A stretch of 64,000 bases of DNA from Allobosea sp. GTDB lineage: Bacteria > Pseudomonadota > Alphaproteobacteria > Rhizobiales > Beijerinckiaceae. Shown one piece after another: positions 11,403-47,010 of the stretch. The position numbers and the translations under genes were made by a program. Location of the stretch: NCBI RefSeq assembly GCF_017308075.1, contig NZ_JAFKFX010000023.1, positions 310,001 to 374,000 on the forward strand, given 5' to 3'. Under the pieces are notes generated by a model. The model worked only from the letters and a program-made list of their open reading frames with translations, did no database searches and was not told the DNA's origin. Position 1 is the stretch's first letter, and the number at the start of each line of letters is the position of its first letter.

Positions 11403-12503
11403 ATGCGCCCTTGGGTTCGAGGCCTCGCCAAGCGGGCCACCGCGGTGGTCCTGGCAGGCTGGGCGGCTGGCGTCATGCCGGCTCAGGCCTGCACCAATAT
11501 CTTGCTGATGGCGGCTGACGGAACGCCGGTCTACGGCCGCACGCTGGAATACGCGCTCGAAACCCAGTCCGACGTCGTCGTCGTGCCGCGCAACCACCAA
11601 TTCGTCGGAACCCGCCCGAACAACGTACCGGGCGCCAAATGGACCTCGCGCTACGCTTTCGTCGGCGTCATGAGCTTCGGCCAGCCTTTCGTCTCTGACG
11701 GCATGAACGAGAAGGGGCTCGCTGGCGGCGCCCTCTATTTCCCCGATTTCGCCAGCTATACTCCGCCGGCCAAGGCCGACCCGAATACTGCGCTCGCGCC
11801 ATGGGAGTTCCTGAGCTGGGTCCTGTCGAATTTCGCGACCGTCGCCGAGGTCAAGGCCGCGCTCGACAAGGCGGTGATCGTCGATCTGCCGGCGCCGATG
11901 GTGAACTTCACGCTGCCCTTCCATTTCCCGATCCATGACGCGACCGGCGCCTCGATCGTGATCGAGCCGATCGACGGGAAGCTGAAAGTCTACGACAACC
12001 CAATGGGTGTCCTGACCAATTCCCCGCCCTTCGACTGGCACCTCAACAACATCCGCAACTACGTGAAAATGTCGCCGGTCGCGGCCGATCCGTTGAAGAT
12101 CGGCGGAAAGACCTTCGAGCCGTTCGGCCAGGGCTCGGGCCTGCTCGGCATCCCCGGCGATCCGACGCCGCCTTCGCGCTTCATCCGCGCCCTCGGCTAT
12201 GCCGCTTCCGCCAAGCAGCAGCCCGACGGCCCGCAGACCGTGCGCCTGGTCGAGCACATCATGAACAATTTCGACATCCCGATCGGCTTCATCGATTCGG
12301 CCGCGAAGGGTGGCGAGCTCGAATACACGCAGTGGACTTCGGTCGCCGACCTGCGCGCCAAGAAGTACTACATCAAGGGCTACCGGGATCAGGTTCTGCG
12401 GATGGTCGATCTCAGCAGCTTCGATCTCGATGCCAAGGGGCTGCGCGTCGCGCCGTTCAAGATCAACCTGACGCCGCCGCCGCTGGAATTCGCCAAGCCC
12501 TGA
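11403..12503 (+). CDS. Choloylglycine hydrolase / penicillin V acylase-family enzyme, exported
   Basis: 366 residues. A signal peptide ends in PAQA and the next residue is Cys30 of ACTNILLMAADGTPVYGRTL. In this Ntn-hydrolase family the cysteine becomes the N-terminal nucleophile once the leader is removed. The family includes bile-salt hydrolases, penicillin V acylases and Gram-negative members that cleave acyl-homoserine lactones. The open frame extends far upstream, but only the ATG at 11403 gives the leader plus Cys layout. It stands alone, between the divergent DUF721 set and the convergent MetA-like gene. The substrate is not predictable. Confidence 0.88.
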   Translation: MRPWVRGLAKRATAVVLAGWAAGVMPAQACTNILLMAADGTPVYGRTLEYALETQSDVVVVPRNHQFVGTRPNNVPGAKWTSRYAFVGVMSFGQPFVSDGMNEKGLAGGALYFPDFASYTPPAKADPNTALAPWEFLSWVLSNFATVAEVKAALDKAVIVDLPAPMVNFTLPFHFPIHDATGASIVIEPIDGKLKVYDNPMGVLTNSPPFDWHLNNIRNYVKMSPVAADPLKIGGKTFEPFGQGSGLLGIPGDPTPPSRFIRALGYAASAKQQPDGPQTVRLVEHIMNNFDIPIGFIDSAAKGGELEYTQWTSVADLRAKKYYIKGYRDQVLRMVDLSSFDLDAKGLRVAPFKINLTPPPLEFAKP

Positions 12504-12563
12504 CCTGGCGTATCGGTTCCGGGCGCGACATTACCCGTGGGCCCGGAGTCAAACTGAAGTTCT

Positions 12564-12598
12564 GAACGGCCGCGCCGGTTCTGCCAGCGCGGCCGTTC
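12564..12598. terminator. Bidirectional terminator between two convergent genes
   Basis: A 12-bp perfect stem (GAACGGCCGCGC at 12564-12575, complement at 12587-12598) with an 11-nt loop. It sits midway between the hydrolase stop (12503) and the MetA-like stop (12608). Confidence 0.75.
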
Positions 12599-12607
12599 GT
12601 CAATCGC

Positions 12608-13615
12608 TCATCGCGCCGCTGACAGGGGGAGCGAGACCGTGAGCAGTCCCACGGTTCCGCGCGCCCGGTTCTCGACGCTGAATTCGCGCAGCACCTTGCT
12701 GCGGGTGGAGATCGGCGTCTCGCCGAGCTGGAAATTATAGGCGACCGTTCCGCCCAGGGCGGTGGTTCGGCCCTTGTACGGACCGAGCTGCGCACCGGCG
12801 CCGCTGTCGCCCGTGACCTGCTGGTAGTGATAGCCAATAACGCCTGCCGAAAGCGCGCTGGTGAGGGCCTTCGAGGCCGCCCATTCGACATGGAACTCGG
12901 TTCCTGTCCGGTAGTCTGTCGCGCGGTTCGTGCCGTTGAAGGTCACGCCGACGGCCGTGGAAAGGTCGATGCCCGTCTCGGGATCGAACCAGGTCAGGGC
13001 GCCGGAAAGATCACTCGCCCAGCGGTGGAAGGCGAGGTTGGCGAGCTGTCCGTCGCGATAATCGCCAGCCGGGGCATTGACCAGCGCGGTCGTGCTCCAA
13101 TGGAATTTGCCGGAATGCCAGCCCAGAGTGGCGGACAGGACGGGATCGCCGACCATGGTTGCCGTGTCGCGTAGCGAGCTCCCGATGATGGTCCTCGTAC
13201 GCGGCGAATCGATCTCGACGCCGGCCGAGACCGCGACGCGCCCGACGGGTAGGACGGCACCGACCGCGAAATTGCCGCCGAAAAACTCCCAGGGCGTCAC
13301 CCAGGTCCCGTTCAGAAAGTCGGCGCGGGCCTGGCTGCGCACGTTCGCGATCACTCGGCCGCCCGCCGGAAGCGACTTCCGGGCATCGAGCTTGGCGTCG
13401 TAGGAATAGGTATCGCTCTCGAAATAGAAGCCGGGCGGTGGGAGGTACCCCGCCATCGGTCCGCGGCCTCCGAGCAGATAGAAGCCCGTGCCGTTCTCCG
13501 CCGCCCGTGCCGCATCAGGGGCCAGCGCACCACAAGCGGCGACACCCAGCACGGCAAGCGCCTGCGCCATCCGCAACCCGGACGGTTGCCGCCGGGCTCC
13601 TCTTCGCCGAAACAT
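12608..13615 (-). CDS. Transporter of the SphA/MetA phenol-degradation family (outer membrane)
   Basis: About 335 residues from the ATG at 13615, or 320 from the ATG at 13570. The start contains a secretion signal (MAQALAVLGVAACGALAPDA then ARAAENG). The remainder alternates short amphipathic strands rich in Gly, Thr and aromatic residues, as in a beta-barrel, and opens with GTGFYLLGGRGPMAGYLPPP, characteristic of the COG4313/MetA_phenol_deg family. Members are outer-membrane proteins found in aromatic-compound pathways, but no such pathway is present here. Function is therefore inferred by family only. Confidence 0.78.
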   Translation of the reverse strand: MFRRRGARRQPSGLRMAQALAVLGVAACGALAPDAARAAENGTGFYLLGGRGPMAGYLPPPGFYFESDTYSYDAKLDARKSLPAGGRVIANVRSQARADFLNGTWVTPWEFFGGNFAVGAVLPVGRVAVSAGVEIDSPRTRTIIGSSLRDTATMVGDPVLSATLGWHSGKFHWSTTALVNAPAGDYRDGQLANLAFHRWASDLSGALTWFDPETGIDLSTAVGVTFNGTNRATDYRTGTEFHVEWAASKALTSALSAGVIGYHYQQVTGDSGAGAQLGPYKGRTTALGGTVAYNFQLGETPISTRSKVLREFSVENRARGTVGLLTVSLPLSAAR

Positions 13616-37081: not shown

Positions 37082-37252
37082 TAGGGGGCCGCCGTCACTC
37101 CCGCCTTCGCGGTGGGTGTCCACGAGCAGGCGTCGATCAGACAACAACGTGGCGCGGCGTGGATGGCCGAAGAATGTCGGCCGTGACGGCGAGCGGCGCA
37201 GGAGTCTGCCGGAACCCGCCGATTGACGGTTGCATCGCGCTGATCCACTCTT

Positions 37253-37310
37253 TCGAATGGTCCAAAAGGGCCCCGGGGCGCTGCGCGTCACGGGGCCCTT
37301 GTCCATTCGA
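37253..37310 (+). promoter_or_regulatory. Long leader hairpin before the URC-like operon
   Basis: TCGAATGG (37253-37260) pairs with CCATTCGA (37303-37310). Inside, AAGGGCCCCG (37266-37275) pairs with CGGGGCCCTT (37291-37300). The structure ends 15 bases before the ATG of the GTP cyclohydrolase II-like gene, next to its Shine-Dalgarno region. It could be an attenuator, a translational control element, or a repeat that landed there. Confidence 0.5.
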
Positions 37311-37325
37311 GAAGCGAAGCTGCCG

Positions 37326-38588
37326 ATGACGTCGCAGAACCGCACGAGCCATATCCGACTGACCTCCCATCCCGAGCCCGGCGGTGCCGCGGCCCGTTTC
37401 CCGATCCATTGGGGCGCGGCGACGCCAGAGGAGCGCGGCCCGGTCATCGCCTCGACCACCAACCCCGCCGATCGCAATGTCATCGGCGCCCATGGCGGCT
37501 CCTATTCGGTTTATCGGGCGCTCGCGATCTCGGCCCGCGCCATGAATCCGGCACAGCGGCCGGACCTGACCAACACCCACCCGACCGCCGAGATCCTGCC
37601 GCAGCCGCAATGGTTCGAGCCCGGGAAGATCGTCTCGCTCGACCCGTTCGGCCATCGCGTCGCTCAGGATTTCGGCCAGTGGATCGGCGAGGGCGTCGAC
37701 ATCCGCCCGACCATCGCCGTCACCAAGGCGAGGCTCAACCTGCCGGAAATCCTCGCCGCCATGGCTGGGCACCGGCTCGCCGCCGACGGCCATATCCTGC
37801 ACGGCTCCGGCGACATCAGCGTCACCAAGATCGCGGTCGACCCGGTCTGGCATCTGCCGGGCATCGCCGAGCGCTTCGGCACCAGCGAGAACCTGCTGCG
37901 CCGCACCCTGTTCGAGCAGACCGGTGGCATGTATCCGGAATTGGTGACGCGGCCCGACCTCAAGGTCTTCCTGCCGCCGATCGGCTCGATCACCGCCTAT
38001 GTCATCGGCGAGGTCGCGGCGATCGCCGATCCCGGGCGCAAGCTCGCCTGCCGCGTCCATGACGAGTGCAACGGCTCCGATGTCTTCGGTTCCGACATCT
38101 GCACCTGCCGGCCTTATCTCGTGCACGGTATCGAGGAGGCGGTTAAGGAGGCGCAGGGCGGCGGCGTCGGCCTGATCGTCTACAACCGCAAGGAGGGCAG
38201 GGCGCTCGGCGAGGTCACCAAGTTTCTCGTCTACAACGCCCGCAAGCGTCAGGAGGGCGGCGATTCCGCCGCGACCTATTTCGAGCGCACCGAATGCGTC
38301 GCCGGCGTGCAGGATGCCCGCTTCCAGCAATTGATGCCGGATGTGCTGCACTGGCTTGGCGTCAGGAAGATCGACCGGCTGATGTCGATGTCCAACATGA
38401 AGTATGACGCCATGGTCGAGAGCGGCATCGAGATCGGCGAGCGCGTCGCGATCCCGCCCGAGCTGATCCCGCCCGACGCCTCGGTCGAGATCGAGGCCAA
38501 GAAGGCCGCGGGCTATTATTCGCCGGACGGCACGCCCGGCGACAACGCGCTGAAATCCACGGTCGGCCGCGACCTCGAGAAATTCTGA
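37326..38588 (+). CDS. GTP cyclohydrolase II-like protein, URC1 type (uracil catabolism)
   Basis: 420 residues from the ATG at 37326 (MTSQNRTSHIRLTSHPEPGG), with a weak GAAGCGAAG upstream; the longer frame runs through the leader hairpin. The C-terminal half holds the GTP cyclohydrolase II zinc ligands, C-x10-C-x-C in DECNGSDVFGSDICTC, and the NRKEGRALGEVTKF region. The N-terminal half (GPVIASTTNPADRNVIGAHG) is specific to the URC1/Urg1 branch rather than to RibA of riboflavin synthesis. It is followed five bases later by the DUF1688 gene and then upp, the order expected for a bacterial URC pathway. Confidence 0.85.
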   Translation: MTSQNRTSHIRLTSHPEPGGAAARFPIHWGAATPEERGPVIASTTNPADRNVIGAHGGSYSVYRALAISARAMNPAQRPDLTNTHPTAEILPQPQWFEPGKIVSLDPFGHRVAQDFGQWIGEGVDIRPTIAVTKARLNLPEILAAMAGHRLAADGHILHGSGDISVTKIAVDPVWHLPGIAERFGTSENLLRRTLFEQTGGMYPELVTRPDLKVFLPPIGSITAYVIGEVAAIADPGRKLACRVHDECNGSDVFGSDICTCRPYLVHGIEEAVKEAQGGGVGLIVYNRKEGRALGEVTKFLVYNARKRQEGGDSAATYFERTECVAGVQDARFQQLMPDVLHWLGVRKIDRLMSMSNMKYDAMVESGIEIGERVAIPPELIPPDASVEIEAKKAAGYYSPDGTPGDNALKSTVGRDLEKF

Positions 38589-38593
38589 GTGCC

Positions 38594-39811
38594 ATGCCTG
38601 ACTCCAATCCCGAAGCCGTCCGCCAGTTGCTGAAGCCAGCCGTCATCCGCGAGCGGGCGCAGGAGATGCTGCAGCTCGGCCTCGACGGCCGGCTCTCGCA
38701 TTTCAGCGTGCATCCCGAACGGCTCGATGTCTGCGCGGATTATGTCCTGGCGACGATCCGCAAGAACTATCCGACGCTCGATATTCCCTTCCATGCGCGC
38801 TGGCGGCATTTTGTCGTCGCCGGCGTCGACCGTTGGCGCAGCCTCGACGAAGCCGCCGGGTTCGCCGATGCCGGTGCGCGCGGCCGCGCCGCCTATGACC
38901 TCGCCATCGTCAGCGTGCTGCTCGACGCCGGCGCCGGCCCGGCCTGGCGCTATCGCGACGGGCTGACCGGTATGCTCATCGGCCGTTCGGAAGGGCTGGC
39001 GCTGGCTTCGCTCGACATGTTCGCCGCCGGCTTGTTCTCCGGCGATCCCGCCGACCCGCTACGCGTCGACAGCGACGTGCTGAAGCGGCTCGATGCGGCG
39101 AGCTTGGCCGAAGGCTTCCAGGCCGGCGAGGCCAATCCGCTGGTCAGCCTCGAAGGCCGCGCCGCCCTGCTCAACCGGCTCGGAGAGGAGCTCGAAAAGC
39201 ATGGGCTCGACCGGCCCGGCGGCCTGTTCGACCGGCTGTTCGCGGCGGCCGAGGGCGGCACGCTCCGCGCCAGCTATATCCTGTCGCAGGTGCTGGAGGT
39301 GCTCGGCGGCATCTGGCCCTCGCGCCTGAGCTATGCCGGCATCCCGCTCGGCGACAGCTGGAAGCACCCGCTGATCGCGCAGGGCAGCGTCACCGCCGGC
39401 ATCATGCCCTTCCACAAGCTTTCGCAATGGCTGAGCTATTCGCTGATCGAGCCGCTGCAATGGGCCGGCATCGAGGTCGTCGACATCGACGAGCTCACGG
39501 GCCTGCCCGAATATCGCAATGGCGGCCTGTTCCTCGATCTCGGCGTGATCGCGCTGAAGCAGGAGGAGGATCGCTCCGGCGCCCATGCGGTCGGCTCCGA
39601 GATCGTGGTCGAATGGCGGGCGCTCACCGTCGCCCTGCTCGACCGGATCGGAGCGCTGGTGCGCGAGCGTCTTGGTCTGACCCGCGAGCAATTGCCGCTC
39701 GCCAAGGTGCTCGAAGGCGGTACCTGGTCGGCCGGGCGCCGTATCGCCGCCGAGAAACGCGAAGGCGGCGGGCCGCCCTTGACCATCGTCAGCGACGGCA
39801 CGGTATTCTAA
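38594..39811 (+). CDS. DUF1688 protein, URC4/Urg3 family
   Basis: 405 residues covering the full DUF1688 length. Recognisable stretches are HFSVHPERLDVCADYVLATI, PFHARWRHFVVAGVDRW and LPEYRNGGLFLDLGVI. The fungal homologue URC4 is required for growth on uracil as nitrogen source, but its biochemical step is unknown. It is tightly coupled to the URC1-like gene. No signal peptide, so cytoplasmic. Confidence 0.88.
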   Translation: MPDSNPEAVRQLLKPAVIRERAQEMLQLGLDGRLSHFSVHPERLDVCADYVLATIRKNYPTLDIPFHARWRHFVVAGVDRWRSLDEAAGFADAGARGRAAYDLAIVSVLLDAGAGPAWRYRDGLTGMLIGRSEGLALASLDMFAAGLFSGDPADPLRVDSDVLKRLDAASLAEGFQAGEANPLVSLEGRAALLNRLGEELEKHGLDRPGGLFDRLFAAAEGGTLRASYILSQVLEVLGGIWPSRLSYAGIPLGDSWKHPLIAQGSVTAGIMPFHKLSQWLSYSLIEPLQWAGIEVVDIDELTGLPEYRNGGLFLDLGVIALKQEEDRSGAHAVGSEIVVEWRALTVALLDRIGALVRERLGLTREQLPLAKVLEGGTWSAGRRIAAEKREGGGPPLTIVSDGTVF

Positions 39812-39906
39812 ACCTCGATGAGGTAAAGGCTCGGAAATCTGCCGTCATCCCGGACGGCCGCAGGCCGCTCCGGGAGCCATCGAAGGGCGGAGAACTCTAT
39901 GATGGA

Positions 39907-39936
39907 TCCCGGCGCTCCGCTTCGCTGCGGCCGGGA
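39907..39936. repeat. Intergenic palindromic repeat (TCCCGG family)
   Basis: TCCCGG (39907-39912) and CCGGGA (39931-39936) around a GCTCCGCTTCGCTGC centre, resembling the unit at 3244-3275. A second half-unit (GTCATCCCGGACGGC) lies at 39843-39858. The rest of 39812-39991 has no recognisable gene. Confidence 0.6.
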
Positions 39937-39991
39937 CGGCAGCTTTGCTTCAGGGAACCTATCCCATCGCCGCTACAAGGGGGCATAACGA

Positions 39992-40633
39992 ATGACCACG
40001 CATTCCGACGGCGTCACCGTCGTCGACCATCCGCTGGTGCAGCACAAGCTGACGCTGATGCGCGAAAAGGAGCGCTCGACCAAGAGCTTTCGTCAGTTGC
40101 TGAACGAGATCGGCATGCTGCTCTGCTACGAGGTGACGCGCGACCTGCCGACCGAGATGATCGAGGTCGAGACGCCGCTGCAGAAGACGATGCAGCCGGT
40201 GATCTCCGGCAAGAAGCTGGTCTTCGCGCCGATCCTGCGCGCCGGCGTCGGCTTCCTCGACGGCATGCTCGAACTGGTGCCGGCCGCCCGCGTCGCCCAT
40301 ATCGGCCTCTACCGCGATCCCGAGACGCTGCAGGCGGTCGAGTACTATTTCAAGGCGCCCTCCGACATCGCCGACCGCATGATCGTGGTGATGGACCCGA
40401 TGCTGGCGACGGCCAACTCGGCCGTCGCCGCCGTCGACCGGCTGAAGGAGCGCGGCGCCCATGATCTGCGCTTCGTCTGCCTGCTCGCGGCGCCCGAGGG
40501 CATCGCCCGCATGCGCGACGCCCATCCCGATGTCCGGATCTGGACGGCGGCCATCGACGAGCGTCTCAACGATCACGGCTACATCGTCCCCGGCCTCGGC
40601 GATGCCGGCGACCGCATGTTCGGGACGCGCTGA
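39992..40633 (+). CDS. upp: Uracil phosphoribosyltransferase
   Basis: 213 residues. The PRPP-binding loop is [20 protein letters not shown], and the C-terminal uracil-binding segment is [20 protein letters not shown]. It converts uracil and PRPP to UMP. In yeast the corresponding enzyme (URC6) is the entry step of the URC route, which fits the two genes upstream. About 180 bases with a repeat separate it from the DUF1688 gene, so it may have its own promoter. Confidence 0.96.
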
Positions 40634-40643
40634 GCGCCTGTCC

Positions 40644-40686
40644 TTGTCGTTTTGGCGATATGCCCCTATTCTGTAGGCATATTGCC
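40644..40686 (+). promoter_or_regulatory. Promoter and operator of the RES-Xre module
   Basis: TTGTCG (40644-40649), 17 bp, TATTCT (40667-40672) form a good sigma-70-type promoter. An 11-bp inverted repeat with one mismatch, GGCGATATGCC (40654-40664) and GGCATATTGCC (40676-40686), has an 11-nt centre that contains the -10. A repressor bound here would block transcription, consistent with autoregulation by the Xre antitoxin. Confidence 0.75.
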
Positions 40687-40695
40687 AGGGAGACG

Positions 40696-41127
40696 ATGGT
40701 GACGACGATCCGTGCAGTGGACGTGGTGGGTGGCCCGGAGGTGATCGGTGCTCCGCTCGACAGTGCGCGCGCGATCATCGCGGCGGTCCGGCGCGGCTTT
40801 CCGGTGGCGGCGGTGGAACATGTCATCGCCAGCGGCCGCATGACGCTGGCCGAGATCGACGAGGTCGTGCTGCCGCGCAAGACGCTCAGCCACCGGCGCA
40901 AGATCGGCACCTTGACCAGCGAGCAGTCCGACCGGCTGGTCCGGGCCGCCCGGGTCATCGCAGAAGCGGAGGAGACCTTCGGCTCGCAGGAAAAGGCCGG
41001 CAGATGGCTGCGCCGGCCGACCGAGGCACTGGGCGGCGAAAAGCCGATCGCGCTGCTCGACACCAGCGCGGGTGCGGCCGAAGTCGAGACGCTGCTCGGC
41101 CGGATCGCGCACGGCATCGCTGCCTGA
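40696..41127 (+). CDS. Antitoxin Xre/MbcA/ParS, DUF2384 type
   Basis: 143 residues from the ATG at 40696 behind AGGGAG; an in-frame ATG at 40660 falls inside the operator and before the inferred transcription start, so it is unlikely. The N-terminal helical Xre-like part (MTLAEIDEVVLPRKTLSHRR) is followed by the DUF2384 C-terminus WLRRPTEALGGEKPIALLDT. That part binds the toxin active site in solved RES-Xre complexes. Its TGA overlaps the toxin ATG. Confidence 0.9.
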   Translation: MVTTIRAVDVVGGPEVIGAPLDSARAIIAAVRRGFPVAAVEHVIASGRMTLAEIDEVVLPRKTLSHRRKIGTLTSEQSDRLVRAARVIAEAEETFGSQEKAGRWLRRPTEALGGEKPIALLDTSAGAAEVETLLGRIAHGIAA

Positions 41128-41573
41128 TGCGGGTCTGGCGCGTCTGCCGCGCCGCCTTCGCCGATCTCGGCGGGGAGGGCGCGAGGCTTTATGGCGGGCG
41201 CTGGAACTCGCCGGGGCGGCCGGTCGTCTACACCGCCGAGAACCCCGCCCTGGCCATATTGGAGGTCCGCGTCCATCTCGATCTCGAGCCGGACCTGATC
41301 CCCGATGATTATGTCCTGATCGAGATCGACCTCGCCGGGGCCGCTTGCGAGGAGGTGGCGGCCTTGCCGGAGGATCCGAAGCAGGTCGGCGACGCCTGGC
41401 TGGCGGAAGGCCGCACGCCGGTGCTGAAGGTTCCCTCTTTCGCCGCACCGCGCAGCGCCAACTTTCTGATCAACCCTGCCCATGCCGGCCGGAGTTCCGT
41501 CGCTGTGATCGGGCAAGAGAAGTTCAGCTTCGACCGTCGCCTCTGGCTGCCGCTATCCGGCACGATCTTGTAA
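41127..41573 (+). CDS. RES-domain toxin
   Basis: 148 residues. The RES domain signature is present: arginine in LYGGRWNSPG, then VVYTAENPALAILEVRVHL with the glutamate, and the serine in NPAHAGRSSVAV. Characterised RES toxins degrade or ADP-ribosylate using NAD, stopping growth. Translationally coupled to the antitoxin by a 1-codon overlap (TGATG). A strong hairpin at 41598-41621 ends the operon. Confidence 0.92.
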   Translation: MRVWRVCRAAFADLGGEGARLYGGRWNSPGRPVVYTAENPALAILEVRVHLDLEPDLIPDDYVLIEIDLAGAACEEVAALPEDPKQVGDAWLAEGRTPVLKVPSFAAPRSANFLINPAHAGRSSVAVIGQEKFSFDRRLWLPLSGTIL

Positions 41574-42229: not shown

Positions 42230-42760
42230 TCAGGGGCTTGTGTCGATCACGACGTCGATGCCCACCGCCGCGAGATCATGGACCTGAGTCCGTTGCGGCG
42301 GTTTGCCGGCATTGGCGAAGAGCTCGTCGACGGTGGCCTCCTCGGAGAGGAAGAGGAAATCGGCATAGGCCCCGACCTCTGGATAGGCGTCGATGGCGTG
42401 CCAGGTGCCGCGATGGAACATCACGCCGGTGCGGTCGAGGCGGAAGGCGCGTAGCGCTTCGGGCGCAGGTGGCGTCTCGGCAGGCTCTCCGACCACGATG
42501 ATCGCCGGGGGCCCGCCGAGCGGCAGGCGCGCCTCGGTGACGCAGAGATGGCGTTCGATCACGCCGACGGTGAATGGCCGGGCGTGATAGCGCACGATCT
42601 GCAGGCGCGGCCGGGTTTCGGCTGCGAAGGGCTGGAGCCAGATGTCGTAGCCGTCGCGGCCGGCATCGCGCGGGCCGTCCGGCCACAGCAACCGGCCATA
42701 GGGCGCGAAGGCCTCCGGCGTCAGCGGCGCAACGGCAATGCGAATCGTCCGGTTCATCAT
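42230..42760 (-). CDS. Ureidoglycolate lyase family protein
   Basis: 176 residues of the AllA-type cupin family. Starts MMNRTIRIAVAPLTPEAFAP behind GGAGGAGAC. Key stretches: FTVGVIERHLCVTEARLPLG, and FHRGTWHAIDAYPEVGAYADFL with the conserved GTWH. AllA cleaves ureidoglycolate to glyoxylate and urea in purine breakdown. No other allantoin genes are in the window, so the true substrate is uncertain. A terminator separates it from the tct operon upstream. Confidence 0.82.
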   Translation of the reverse strand: MMNRTIRIAVAPLTPEAFAPYGRLLWPDGPRDAGRDGYDIWLQPFAAETRPRLQIVRYHARPFTVGVIERHLCVTEARLPLGGPPAIIVVGEPAETPPAPEALRAFRLDRTGVMFHRGTWHAIDAYPEVGAYADFLFLSEEATVDELFANAGKPPQRTQVHDLAAVGIDVVIDTSP

Positions 42761-42962: not shown

Positions 42963-43931
42963 TTACTTCGACGCGGCGGAGAGCACCGGCGCGAGCTTGT
43001 CGGCGTCGCGCTTGATCAGCGCGGCAAAGCCGGCGGGGGTGCGCTCTTCCTTGGTCGGGATCACCGTGCCGAGATCGAGCAGACGCTTCTTGACGTTCTC
43101 GTCGTTCAGCGCCTTGTCGAGCGCGTCGACGAGCTTGTCGACGACCTCCTTCGGCGTGCCCTTCGGCGCAGCGAGGCCGTTCCAGGCTTCGATCTGGTAC
43201 TCGGGCAGTCCGGCTTCCTTGGTGGTCGGGATGTTCGGCAGGGCCGGCGAGCGCTCGGCCGAGGCGATGGCATAGGCCTTGATCGTGCCGGCCTTGACCT
43301 GCTCGGAGACGCTGACGATCTGGTCGCACATGAAGTCGATCTGGCCCGAGACCAGGTCGTTCAGTGCCGGACCGGTGCCGCGATAGGCGACGGAGTTCAG
43401 CTTCGGCACGCCGAGCTGGCCCTTGAGCAGGGTGCAGGTCGTCCAGGAGACCGAGCCGACGCCGGCATGCGCTTCGTTGAGCTTGTCCGGGCTCGCCTTC
43501 ACGAGCGCGACGAACTCCTTCAGGTCCTTCGGCGCGAGATCCTTCTTGGCGACGATCAGGATCGGCGTGCCGCCGGCGAGGCCGATCGCCTGCATGCCGT
43601 TGATCGGGTCGTATTTCAGCCCGGGATAGGTCGCAGGCGCCGCCGAGAAGGTACCGAGATGGCCCATGGCGATGGTGTAGCCGTCCGGTGCCGCGGTCAG
43701 CGCGCGGGTGATGCCGGTGGTGCCACCGGCCCCGGCCACGTTTTCGACCACGACCTGCTGGCCGAGCGTCTTCGACATGCTCTCGCCGACGATGCGGGCG
43801 ATGATGTCGGTCGGGCCACCGGCCGCGAAAGGCACGATCATGGTGATCGGCCGCTCCGGATATTTGGTCTGCGCCTGGGCCGGGGCGGCGAGCGCCAGTG
43901 CGGCGACGACGCCGAGGGCGAGCTTCTTCAT
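42963..43931 (-). CDS. Tripartite tricarboxylate transporter substrate-binding protein (Bug/TctC)
   Basis: 322 residues from the ATG at 43931, behind GGGAGGAA. A signal peptide (MKKLALGVVAALALAAPAQA) is followed by YPERPITMIVPFAAGGPTDI and the VENVAGAGGTTG loop that bind the carboxylate in the Bug family. The protein is periplasmic and feeds TctAB, encoded upstream on the same strand. The ligand is not predictable; Bug proteins bind dicarboxylates, citrate, aromatic acids and others. Confidence 0.92.
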   Translation of the reverse strand: MKKLALGVVAALALAAPAQAQTKYPERPITMIVPFAAGGPTDIIARIVGESMSKTLGQQVVVENVAGAGGTTGITRALTAAPDGYTIAMGHLGTFSAAPATYPGLKYDPINGMQAIGLAGGTPILIVAKKDLAPKDLKEFVALVKASPDKLNEAHAGVGSVSWTTCTLLKGQLGVPKLNSVAYRGTGPALNDLVSGQIDFMCDQIVSVSEQVKAGTIKAYAIASAERSPALPNIPTTKEAGLPEYQIEAWNGLAAPKGTPKEVVDKLVDALDKALNDENVKKRLLDLGTVIPTKEERTPAGFAALIKRDADKLAPVLSAASK

Positions 43932-43995
43932 GCGTATTCCTCCCATTAAGCGGTTATCCAGAGATTTGCGGCGCAGGGCCGCCGAGGCAACCCCG

Positions 43996-45498
43996 TCATT
44001 CGGTGAAGACCTCGTCGCGCTTCTTCGCCATCGAGGGCAGCAGCGCGATGACCAGGATCGCGACGGCCACCAGCAGCAGCCCGGCCGAGATCGGCCGCTC
44101 GATGAAGGTCATGAACGAGCCGCGCGAGATGATCAGCGCCTGGCGCAGCTTCTCTTCCATCAGCTTGCCGAGCACGAAGCCGAGCAGCATTGGCGCCGGC
44201 TCGAAACCGAGCTTGATCAAGAGGTAGCCGAACAGGCCGAACAGCGCGGTGAAGGCGACGTCGACCGGCTGGTTGTTCACCGAATAGATGCCGATCGAGC
44301 AGAAGATCAGGATCGCCGGGAACATCAGACGGTAGGGCACCTGCAGAAGCTTCACCCAGACGCCGACCAGCGGCAGGTTGATGATCAGCAGCATCAGATT
44401 GCCGATCCACATCGAGGCGATCATGCCCCAGAACAGCTCCGGGTTCTTGGTCATCACCTGCGGGCCGGGGATGATGCCGTGGATGGTCATCGCGCCGACC
44501 ATCAGCGCCATCACCGCATTCGGCGGGATGCCGAGGGTGAGCAGCGGGATGAAGGCGGTCTGGGCGCCGGCGTTGTTGGCCGATTCCGGACCGGCGACGC
44601 CCTCGATCGCGCCCTTGCCGAAGCGCGAGGGATCCTTGGCGATCTTCTTCTCTAGCGTATAGCTGGCGAAGGGGCCGAGCACGGCGCCGTTGCCGGGCAG
44701 GATGCCGAGCGTGCCGCCGATGAAGGTGCCGCGCAGGCATGGCGCCGTCGACTGCTTGATGTCTTCCCAGCTCGGCAGAAGCCGGCCGATCTTGGCCTTG
44801 ACGACGTCGCGCGCCTCGGGATTTTCGAGGTTGCGCAGCACTTCGGCGAAGCCGAACACGCCCATCGCCAGCACGGCGAAGTCGATGCCGTCGGCGAGCG
44901 GCGGGAAGCCGAAGGTCATGCGCTCCTGGCCTGTCTCGAGGTCGGTGCCGACGGTCGAGAGCAGCAGGCCGAGCATGATCATGCAGAAGGCCTTGAGGAT
45001 CGAGCCGCGCGCCAGCACGACAGCGAAGCACAGGCCCATCACCATCAGCGAGAAATACTCTGCCGGGCCGAACAGCAAGGCGAGCTTGGTCAGCGGCGCG
45101 CCGAGCGCGGCAATGATCAGCGTCGCGAAGCAGCCGGCGACGAAGGAGCCGATCGCCGCCGTGCCGAGCGCCACGCCGGCCCGGCCCTGCTTGGCCATCT
45201 GGTGGCCGTCGAGCGTGGTGACGACGGCGGTCGCCTCGCCGGGGATGTTGACCAGGATGGCGGTCGTCGAGCCGCCATATTGCGCGCCGTAATAGATGCC
45301 GGCGAGCATGATCAGGGCGCCGACCGGATCGAGCCCGAAGGTGATCGGCAGGAGCATGGCGATGGTGGCGACCGGGCCGACGCCCGGCAGTACGCCGATC
45401 AGCGTGCCGACGAGGCAGCCGACGAAGGCGAGGGCGATGTTCTGCAGGCCGAGCGCGACCGAGAAGCCGAGCCCGAGATTGGCGATCATGTCATGCAT
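43996..45498 (-). CDS. Tripartite tricarboxylate transporter large permease (TctA)
   Basis: 500 residues, about twelve membrane helices. Family landmarks: GVLPGVGPVATIAMLLP, GIYYGAQYGGSTTAILVNIP and the second, related half with GILPGNGAVLGPFASY. It is the transport subunit. It follows tctB by four bases and precedes tctC by 64 bases. Confidence 0.95.
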   Translation of the reverse strand: MHDMIANLGLGFSVALGLQNIALAFVGCLVGTLIGVLPGVGPVATIAMLLPITFGLDPVGALIMLAGIYYGAQYGGSTTAILVNIPGEATAVVTTLDGHQMAKQGRAGVALGTAAIGSFVAGCFATLIIAALGAPLTKLALLFGPAEYFSLMVMGLCFAVVLARGSILKAFCMIMLGLLLSTVGTDLETGQERMTFGFPPLADGIDFAVLAMGVFGFAEVLRNLENPEARDVVKAKIGRLLPSWEDIKQSTAPCLRGTFIGGTLGILPGNGAVLGPFASYTLEKKIAKDPSRFGKGAIEGVAGPESANNAGAQTAFIPLLTLGIPPNAVMALMVGAMTIHGIIPGPQVMTKNPELFWGMIASMWIGNLMLLIINLPLVGVWVKLLQVPYRLMFPAILIFCSIGIYSVNNQPVDVAFTALFGLFGYLLIKLGFEPAPMLLGFVLGKLMEEKLRQALIISRGSFMTFIERPISAGLLLVAVAILVIALLPSMAKKRDEVFTE

Positions 45499-45502
45499 CG
45501 TG

Positions 45503-46021
45503 TCAGATCCCGAAGAGCCAGGGCGCCAGCGGGATCGGCAGGCTCAGCGCATATTTGAACAGGAGGGCACAGGCGATCGTCATCGCGATCGCGAAGATCG
45601 TCAGCTCCTTGAGCTTGACGTCCTCGGCGGCGAGTCCGGAGACGAAGACCACGATCGGTCCGGAAACCAGCATGCCGAGCGCGGGAACCTTAAGCGGGCC
45701 GATCTCGAAGCCGCGGATCGTCAGGCCGAACAGGCAGGCGGCGCCGAGCACGAACAGCACGCCGCGCCAGGACCAGCCTGCCAGCTTCTCGCCCTTGTAA
45801 CGCAGCGAGTTGATGCTCAGCAGCAGGCCGAGGGCGGCGCAGATCACCGCGAAGGATTTCGGCAGCATGCCCGGGCCGAGCTGGCGCAGCGTGCCGGTCG
45901 CCAGATCGCGTGAAAGGAACAGCGCGAGCCCGGCCAGGACGATCATGAACAATCCCGCCGCGAAATCCTGGGTCGAGCGGATACGCAATCCCTGCGCCGA
46001 CTCGATCTTGTTCAAACTCAT
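45503..46021 (-). CDS. Tripartite tricarboxylate transporter small permease (TctB)
   Basis: 172 residues from the ATG at 46021, with GGAGG upstream; four membrane helices. The N-terminal DFAAGLFMIVLAGLALFLSR and LGPGMLPKSFAVICAALGLL are typical of TctB. Its ATG lies within the stop of the lysR gene, so the regulator is co-transcribed with the transporter. Confidence 0.9.
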   Translation of the reverse strand: MSLNKIESAQGLRIRSTQDFAAGLFMIVLAGLALFLSRDLATGTLRQLGPGMLPKSFAVICAALGLLLSINSLRYKGEKLAGWSWRGVLFVLGAACLFGLTIRGFEIGPLKVPALGMLVSGPIVVFVSGLAAEDVKLKELTIFAIAMTIACALLFKYALSLPIPLAPWLFGI

Positions 46022-47010
46022 CAATAACCTCCGGCTTGGGTCGCGACGGCGCGCATCGCGGGCTTTCGGGCGTGCACCGGCACGGTGAAGGGTAGGGTTA
46101 TACGTTCGTCGATCAGCGTGACGCTCTCTCGCAGGATGGCGAGAAAATCGTCGCGCGCGGACAGCTTCTGCTGCGGCCGCCAGGCGACGCCGACGAGCGC
46201 ACCGGGCGGCGGCGGGTCGAGCAGCGCGCCGCGCAGGCGGCGCATGGTGACGCCGGGAAAGCTCAGCCGCGACACCCAGTCCGGCGCCAGCGACATGCCG
46301 AGCCCGGCGGCGACCGCCGACATCATCGCCGGCTTCTCGGTCGCCTCGATGATGACGTTGGGGACGGCGCCGACGCTCTCGAAATAGGCCATGACGAGGT
46401 CGTAGGCGAAGGGCCGTATCCGCTTGGATGGCACCACGAAGGGCTCGCCGACCAGATCCTGCATCGTCAGGTCGTCACGCGCGGCGAGCGGGTGCGCTTC
46501 GTTCAGAACGACGATCGGGCGTTCGACCCGCAGCACCTCGAAGGCGCAGTCGGTCGGCTTGCGCGGCGGGCGCAGCAGCGCGAGGTCGAGCTTGCCGGCC
46601 TCCAGCATCTGCACCAGCGGCACTGTCATCGCCTCGACGAACTTGATATCGATGCCGGGATGGTGGGCGCGGAACGTGACCAGCGCTTCCGGCACGAAGC
46701 TCGAGGAGGCGGCATCGATCGCGCCGACGCGCAGGACCTTGCTCGAGGCCAGCGAGGCTTCGCGCACAGAGCGCGAGGCGCGCTCCATCCTGACCAGGAT
46801 CGCCTTGGCTTCCTCGAGCATGATCAGGCCGGCGCGGGTGAGGGCGACCTGGCGCGTGGTCCGCGTCAGCAGGGTGACGCCGAGGCCGTCCTCGAGCGCG
46901 CTGATCTGGCGCGACAATGCCGGTGGCGCGAGACCGAGCCGCTCGGCCGCCCGGCCGAAATGCAACTCCTCCGCCACCGCGATGAAGCATCGCAGTTGCC
47001 TCAGATCCAT
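46021..47010 (-). CDS. LysR-family regulator of the tct operon
   Basis: 329 residues. N-terminal winged helix-turn-helix: MDLRQLRCFIAVAEELHFGR, then AAERLGLAPPALSRQISALE. The C-terminal part is a periplasmic-binding-like effector domain (FVEAMTVPLVQMLEAGKLDL, PFVVPSKRI). It overlaps tctB at the stop. Being upstream and co-directional rather than divergent, it would control its own operon. The region 47011-47238 upstream is AT-rich but I cannot define an operator. Confidence 0.9.
   Translation of the reverse strand: MDLRQLRCFIAVAEELHFGRAAERLGLAPPALSRQISALEDGLGVTLLTRTTRQVALTRAGLIMLEEAKAILVRMERASRSVREASLASSKVLRVGAIDAASSSFVPEALVTFRAHHPGIDIKFVEAMTVPLVQMLEAGKLDLALLRPPRKPTDCAFEVLRVERPIVVLNEAHPLAARDDLTMQDLVGEPFVVPSKRIRPFAYDLVMAYFESVGAVPNVIIEATEKPAMMSAVAAGLGMSLAPDWVSRLSFPGVTMRRLRGALLDPPPPGALVGVAWRPQQKLSARDDFLAILRESVTLIDERITLPFTVPVHARKPAMRAVATQAGGY

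Follow-up and report, generated by a model that had tools for sequence, protein, structure and literature searches.

The uracil catabolism (URC) pathway is one of the four known modes of pyrimidine degradation; the excerpted text of PMC7530994 assigns the degradation of ribosylurea to urea to fungal URC4, and calls the steps leading from uracil to ribosylurea uncharacterised. In fungi, the pathway comprises URC1, URC4, and URC6 of Lachancea kluyveri and urg1, urg3, and urg2 of Schizosaccharomyces pombe, the three urg genes being clustered and induced by uracil (PMC2174524, in excerpt). A further described system, of relevance to URC4, is Qng1 (DUF2419), described as a nucleoside hydrolase acting on both queuosine and queuosine 5'-monophosphate, with queuine as the released base (PMC11130926, in excerpt). 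Here we describe a 64,000-nucleotide stretch of DNA from Allobosea sp. (contig NZ_JAFKFX010000023.1, positions 310,001 to 374,000; "the window" denotes this whole stretch), in which the same three protein families as in the fungal pathway are encoded, here by an operon that is bacterial and, unlike the fungal systems, is preceded by an RNA leader. URC1 and URC4 have already been published in bacteria, and the cluster alone is ordinary, its gene set being known. We assign a probability of roughly 0.7 to the reading that it is a URC operon degrading uracil at the nucleotide level, probably for its nitrogen, with URC4 cleaving N-ribosylurea 5'-phosphate and a conserved hairpin ahead of URC1 acting as an operon-specific cis-acting element.

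Gene set and relation of URC1 to RibA

The window carries, in this order and on one strand, genes for a GTP-cyclohydrolase-II-like URC1, a DUF1688 protein (URC4), and the uracil phosphoribosyltransferase Upp (Table 1), an arrangement already named in the preliminary description and confirmed by the profile matches and coordinates. URC1 and URC4 are separated by 5 nucleotides (nt), and URC4 and upp by 180 nt; no inverted repeats were found in the latter gap, and a motif taken from it does not recur elsewhere in the window. DUF1688 is a patchy trait across the phylum, being present, with the host genome counted, in 18 of the 299 genomes sampled across the phylum and in 57 of the 61 genomes of the host genus (taken to be Bosea). 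URC1 adjoins URC4 in all 18 carriers of the phylum sample, and upp lies inside the fetched stretch in 15 of them (loci L033 and L039 are without it, and L036 is truncated where its contig stops). Among 53 named loci, which include mycobacteria, one acidobacterium, and one cyanobacterium, URC1 was found in 49 and upp in all 53, a few of the latter genes lying some kilobases off or on the opposite strand.

URC1 shares the PF00925 domain family with RibA and RibBA, and its Cys248, Cys259, and Cys261, invariant across eight aligned URC1 proteins, align with the cysteines of the RibA/RibBA HSEC and CDC motifs, which form the zinc site of RibA. It differs from these enzymes in having a different N-terminal domain (PF12471), in scoring below the RibA cut-offs (58.7 bits at best against RibA models, under the 148-bit cut-off; the PRK07198 model is passed), and in forming a separate clade. 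Two further PF00925 genes of the host genome scored 160 and 95 bits, versus 62.9 bits for URC1. In a first tree, 28 URC1 and 31 RibA rows fell on opposite sides of one branch with 100/100 support, the RibA rows consisting of the 30 best-scoring RibA loci and a poorly cut row from the host genome (L113). Because of this choice of best-scoring rows and the poor cut, a second tree was built. It combines 28 URC1 rows with 15 RibA rows from the first tree (the 30 having been thinned by removing alternate ones), 16 low-scoring RibBA rows from the phylum, and L113 after recutting. URC1 was again split from the 32 RibA/RibBA rows, which include both riboflavin-type genes of the host genome, with 100/100 support; this second tree has long branches among the RibBA rows and a weak joining point (36/61) for the RibA pair of the host. 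The scores below the cut-off and the separation in both trees rule out URC1 as a member of RibA. The preliminary description, which had read the cluster as URC-type, proposed a grouping of its GTP cyclohydrolase with true RibA enzymes as evidence to the contrary; no such grouping appeared in either tree, and the URC-type reading survives with their support. The locus thus holds the gene set of a URC pathway, namely a URC1 distinct from RibA, a DUF1688 gene, and upp linked to both. The solved URC1-type structures 7EEV and 7EJ3, deposited as GTP cyclohydrolase II, match the URC1 of the window over the full length (589 bits); no paper naming 7EEV was found in the literature searched, and 7EJ3 was not searched for.

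Table 1. Positions of the URC genes, of two aligned URC4 codons, and of the leader elements in the window.
Feature	Position	Strand	Remarks
URC1, GTP-cyclohydrolase-II-like (proposed ring-opening hydrolase of uridine 5'-monophosphate, UMP)	37326-38588	+	PF12471, 265.5 bits; PF00925, 60.7 bits; NF005536/PRK07198, 740.6 bits (cut-off, 403)
URC4/DUF1688 (proposed N-ribosylurea 5'-phosphate N-ribohydrolase, Qng1 fold)	38594-39811	+	PF07958, E 1.7e-141
URC4 Lys275 codon	39416-39418	+	Aligned with Qng1 Lys199
URC4 Glu306 codon (PEYRNGG)	39509-39511	+	Aligned with Qng1 Asp231 (FADY)
upp, uracil phosphoribosyltransferase (URC6 role)	39992-40633	+	TIGR01091, 277.3 bits (cut-off, 208)
Leader hairpin	37253-37310	+	Fold alone, -40.3 kcal/mol
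Promoter-like pair TTGACG-N17-CACTCT	TTGACG, 37223-37228; CACTCT, 37246-37251	+	TTGACG conserved in the genus

Predicted fold and proposed reaction of URC4

An alignment of 48 URC4 proteins (A1) served as the input for an AlphaFold model, which has a mean predicted local distance difference test (pLDDT) score of 94.8 and a predicted template-modeling (pTM) score of 0.93. In a Foldseek search of the PDB, all 11 chains matched with E ≤ 1e-3 were those of DUF2419/Qng1, the queuine salvage enzyme (E, 3.8e-9 to 8.1e-8; template-modeling (TM) score by target, 0.71–0.76), and the next-best match had an E of 0.5. Profile comparison by hhalign of URC4 with four Qng1 homologues (one encoded in the genome of an acidobacterial record, the others in three further genomes belonging to that phylum) gave 81% probability (E, 1.2e-5) over 282 columns, versus 0.4% for URC1 and 0.7% for UPP as controls, both of which were shallower alignments (8 rows each) than that of URC4. 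In this alignment, FxKRAQ of Qng1 lies opposite PFHKLSQW of URC4, and LTxFADY lies opposite LTGLPEYRNGG, so that the Qng1 residues mutated in 7u5a (K199C) and 7ulc (D231N) correspond to Lys275 and Glu306 of URC4, respectively. The fold and profile evidence thus point to URC4 as a putative N-ribohydrolase, narrowing the earlier statement that its chemistry is unsolved.

URC4 appears to share with Qng1, a queuosine 5'-phosphate N-ribohydrolase, the fold over nearly the whole chain and the positions of the active-site lysine and acid, whereas the two differ in the identity of the acid, in chain length (405 residues in URC4 versus 315–344 in the matched Qng1 chains), and in the proposed leaving group (urea versus queuine), and show no family-level match in sequence. 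Pfam profile PF10343 (Q_salvage) matched nothing in the host genome and nothing in 249 genomes of the phylum, where no control matched either; since URC4 itself is not matched by it, we regard URC4 as a structural relative of Qng1/DUF2419 and not as a member of that family. No link between DUF1688 and DUF2419/Qng1 was found in the literature searched, in which no search joined both terms and most subscription papers lay outside the scope; such a link may be published. With URC4 assigned to the Qng1 fold and two of its catalytic positions named, an unknown domain would become directly accessible to enzyme assay, for which the substrate and two point mutants can be specified.

The aligned positions belong to a group of four residues (Lys275, Glu306, Tyr307, and Arg308) that are all retained in 45 of the 48 proteins of A1. 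The three members without them (L096, L099, and L101) come from loci without URC1, in which no broken pieces of that gene were detected by tblastn. Other conserved positions of URC4 vary despite the presence of URC1, as with Arg71 in L086 and L077 and Glu340 in L040, L047, and L048. Among 101 fetched loci, a count that includes duplicates, the four residues are kept in 96 of the 97 with URC1, the exception (L095) being a gap in a frame-split gene; they are lost in three of the four loci without URC1, and kept in the cyanobacterial L098. The link between the motif and URC1 appears from these alignments to be strong, and not absolute because L098 keeps the motif without URC1 in the fetched stretch. 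The motif-less URC4 relatives in L096, L099, and L101 still have upp nearby and possibly serve a different function. The locus L098 (97-3176) of a cyanobacterial metagenome-assembled genome has a frame-split URC4 followed by folB and by upp in pieces; the gene on the other side of URC4 resembles folK.

In the proposed pathway, whose substrates, order, and products are deduced from the observed gene set, predicted fold, alignment, and linkage, Upp would convert uracil and 5-phosphoribosyl 1-pyrophosphate to UMP, the established chemistry of its family. URC1, which keeps the three aligned cysteines, would hydrolyze the pyrimidine ring of UMP and free a three-carbon fragment (given in the fungal literature as 3-hydroxypropionate, probably formed via malonate semialdehyde), leaving N-ribosylurea that still bears the 5'-phosphate. 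URC4, in which Glu306 and Lys275 would stand for the aspartate and the lysine of Qng1, respectively, would then cut the N-glycosidic bond of N-ribosylurea 5'-phosphate to yield urea and ribose 5-phosphate, as its fold and alignment suggest; and urease, a gene for which is present in the host genome, could convert the urea to ammonia. The pathway is placed at the nucleotide level because upp is in the operon and URC4 resembles an enzyme acting on a 5'-nucleotide. The messenger RNA (mRNA) would start close to the conserved hairpin, which would serve as the operon-specific cis-acting element. As to the use of urea, the urease gene found here differs from the urea amidolyase reported for L. kluyveri in the excerpted text of PMC7530994; urea amidolyase was not searched for here.

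Several points weigh against the assignment of this activity to URC4. The TM scores by query of the Qng1 matches are only 0.59–0.63, with root-mean-squared deviations of 4.6–5.5 Å; a HMMER search of the PDB with the URC4 sequence found no relative, the similarity to Qng1 being too weak; and PF07958 alone is matched by URC4 in Pfam at E ≤ 0.01, PF10343 not being among the matches. Besides the shallowness of the two hhalign controls, the catalytic Asp of Qng1 is Glu in URC4, the Lys being kept, and the correspondence of both residues was taken from the sequence alignment. The motif in L098, with no URC1 in the fetched stretch, likewise makes the link between motif and URC1 less than absolute. 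In an alternative that we consider distinctly unlikely, URC4 has the Qng1 fold and another activity, acting on another ring-opened or an intact nucleotide (e.g., UMP or ureidoacrylate ribotide), with urea released later. The support of the claimed activity by the fold and two aligned catalytic positions, one of them with a different acid, would be compatible with this alternative; the position of URC4 next to the ring-opening candidate in the operon, and the assignment of fungal URC4 to the breakdown of ribosylurea (PMC7530994, in excerpt), argue for the cleavage of N-ribosylurea 5'-phosphate instead.

The hairpin ahead of URC1

A long hairpin directly before the first ATG, noticed in the preliminary description, is borne out by the predicted fold of the window sequence and ends 15 nt ahead of the URC1 start. 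The reading frame stays open up to a TTG at 37230; despite this upstream TTG, the ATG was taken as the start because the proteins of relatives align from it. The hairpin consists of an 8-base-pair (bp) outer stem and a 10+5-bp inner stem. Its conserved core is formed by the inner stem, which is rich in GC; the outer stem is special to the host species and its nearest relative. The hairpin is preceded by a promoter-like pair of boxes (Table 1), at which a generic promoter scan flagged nothing. The palindrome starts 2 nt past the second box, and its outermost bases are therefore probably untranscribed if the pair is the promoter. On the same premise, leader-peptide attenuation is ruled out by the coordinates, which leave no room between the pair and the hairpin. 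For an intrinsic terminator, the leader has the GC-rich stem, and the tail is only TTGTCC in place of a strong U-run; it was not flagged by a standard terminator scan, which disfavors a strong terminator in the window, and was accepted by a laxer terminator-like rule of our own (a stem and a short T-run).

Conservation of the leader was surveyed in 40 distinct leaders of the genus, of which one (L011) is a mis-extracted stretch and three others have the hairpin cut by the 110-nt slice. Our rule accepted 27 of the 40, versus 3 of 104 starts of other genes within those loci (starts of long open reading frames, not annotated ones), and the hairpin before URC1 is thus more than chance. TTGACG stands at a steady place ahead of the hairpin in 39 of the 40, L011 being the remaining one. 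A strict pattern of TTGACG, 17 nt, CA[CG][AG]NT, 14–16 nt, and the GC stem is fitted by 31 leaders, in which 4–6 T are found in the 8 nt after the stem and the arms are 13–16 nt apart; the CACTCT of the window falls outside this pattern. An 11-bp helix could be aligned in 37 distinct leaders, with 98.3% of its cells paired and 19 cells changed on both sides (as high in 0 of 500 shuffles, which ignore kinship); 13 of these 19 are at one pair, and three pairs are affected in all (as high in 59 of 500 shuffles). Exact matches to the core motif number 36 and are spread over 36 of the 61 genomes of the genus, 35 of these sites being at leader distance before URC4 on the same contig and the last one preceding URC1 at a contig end. 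Allowing one or two mismatches added 72 matches, of which 4 are at the leader, the rest being about equal in number to the 62 of a reversed-pattern control. The leaders of the window and of its nearest relative (G050) have diverged and are not among the matches within two mismatches, the single match in the host genome being on another contig. Four leaders of the genus (L004, L007, L008, and L012) have about 24 to 51 extra, repeat-like nt between the hairpin and the ATG. The conservation and some covariation of the helix agree with the earlier suggestion that the leader could be regulatory: the hairpin exists and is tied to URC1.

An analogous element was found in a second genus of the order, where the pattern AGGCCCGTC-n-GGCGGGCCGT occurs at 43 sites in 42 of 60 genomes (18 being without the exact pattern), and its reversed form at none. 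In 29 of the 30 loci fetched from these sites the pattern lies 21–24 nt before URC1, the other (L187) being without URC1; a Xanthobacteraceae record (L094) has the same motif before URC1. Three to five T follow the hairpin of the second genus, directly before the presumed ribosome site. Covariation was not found in this hairpin (a single cell with changes on both sides; score, 0.011 versus 0.028 in shuffles); the invariance of its core columns is due in part to the selection of 27 of the 31 rows with that pattern. By eye, a second, variable hairpin near the presumed start often precedes the conserved one among 12 leaders of the second genus, and it seems to keep pairing through changes (e.g., L178, L180, and L184). 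Our terminator rule accepted none of 36 distinct leaders outside the host genus because the stem of the second genus has a bulge, and those leaders were then examined by motif; in mycobacterial and several other loci, no such hairpin was seen by eye in the leaders. A known Rfam leader or riboswitch can be set aside for the 11 loci searched (the window copy included as L002), as no family reached threshold at any of the 11 leaders: among 5 matches up to an E of 2, the sole one above its gathering score was suhB in L048 (600-680), off the leader, and overlaps with leaders below threshold were those of Atu_C7 in L032 (24.3 versus 45 bits) and ctRNA_p42d in L030 (24.2 versus 50 bits).

Two modes of action come into consideration as about equally likely, each being tentative and held at somewhat less than even odds. 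In the first, the hairpin and U-run form a start-proximal intrinsic terminator, read-through of which would be set by a pyrimidine-related signal. Such a transcription attenuator is consistent with the enrichment of a stem and short T-run in the genus, with a G-C to A-U change beside the T-run that retains pairing in 13 leaders, and with the T-run of the second genus; it is opposed by the poor tail of the window leader, by the weakness of 4–6 T in 8 nt as a run, by the failure of our rule to find any case among the 36 distinct leaders outside the genus, and by visual inspection, which revealed no competing antiterminator structure. In the second, the hairpin either forms a stem-loop at the 5' end and so protects the mRNA, or is bound by a regulator that recognizes RNA. 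The second box and the GC stem keep a steady distance throughout the 31 parsed leaders, which would place the stem near the 5' end, and the extra nt in four leaders indicate that the hairpin need not lie close to the start codon, both as expected of a protective or protein-bound stem; however, the stem sequence is conserved beyond the need of protection alone, and no dedicated regulator was seen among the scanned window genes, no wider search having been made. Quite improbable is a palindrome acting only as a DNA operator, or as the terminator of the upstream gene: it is palindromic in DNA and starts next to the second promoter-like box in the window, but the arm distance varies by single bases and the stem has compensatory changes, which disfavor an operator as the whole explanation, and TTGACG stands upstream of it in nearly all leaders.

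The reading of the hairpin as an operon-specific cis-acting element could be carried further, to a proposal that we regard as unlikely: the Bosea hairpins, together with those of the second genus, would make up a class of cis-acting RNAs not described before, sensing a signal of pyrimidine catabolism (uracil, UMP/uridine 5'-triphosphate, or ribosylurea phosphate) and gating the operon, and URC4 would found a family of N-ribosylurea-5'-phosphate hydrolases within the Qng1 superfamily. If the leader is indeed a sensor, soil bacteria would have in it a compact RNA switch that controls the catabolism of uracil.

Genes flanking the cluster

When 26 diverse loci and 6 from Bosea, many of them close relatives, were clustered and 10 representatives were scanned with Pfam, no neighbor other than URC1, URC4, and upp themselves recurred in a steady place beside the URC genes. 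Flank genes seen in those loci encode an ATP-binding cassette (ABC)-transporter ATPase (5), an AMP-binding enzyme (6), a HupE/UreJ protein (3), and an amidase (3). Ten hand-picked open reading frames of the flanks included a PfkB-type kinase gene beside upp in L096 and an Amidohydro_3 gene near upp in the Ramlibacter locus L091; the latter gene, downstream of upp (12275-13540, +), resembles a cytosine deaminase gene.

In the window itself, upp is immediately followed by a type II toxin-antitoxin pair of the RES-Xre kind (40660-41573, +). Beyond this pair come, on the opposite strand, a ureidoglycolate-lyase-like gene (42230-42760, -; PF04115, 53 bits, far under the NCBIfam cut-offs), the product of which may act on another ureido compound, and a set for a TctC-TctA-TctB tripartite carboxylate transporter (42963-46024, -).

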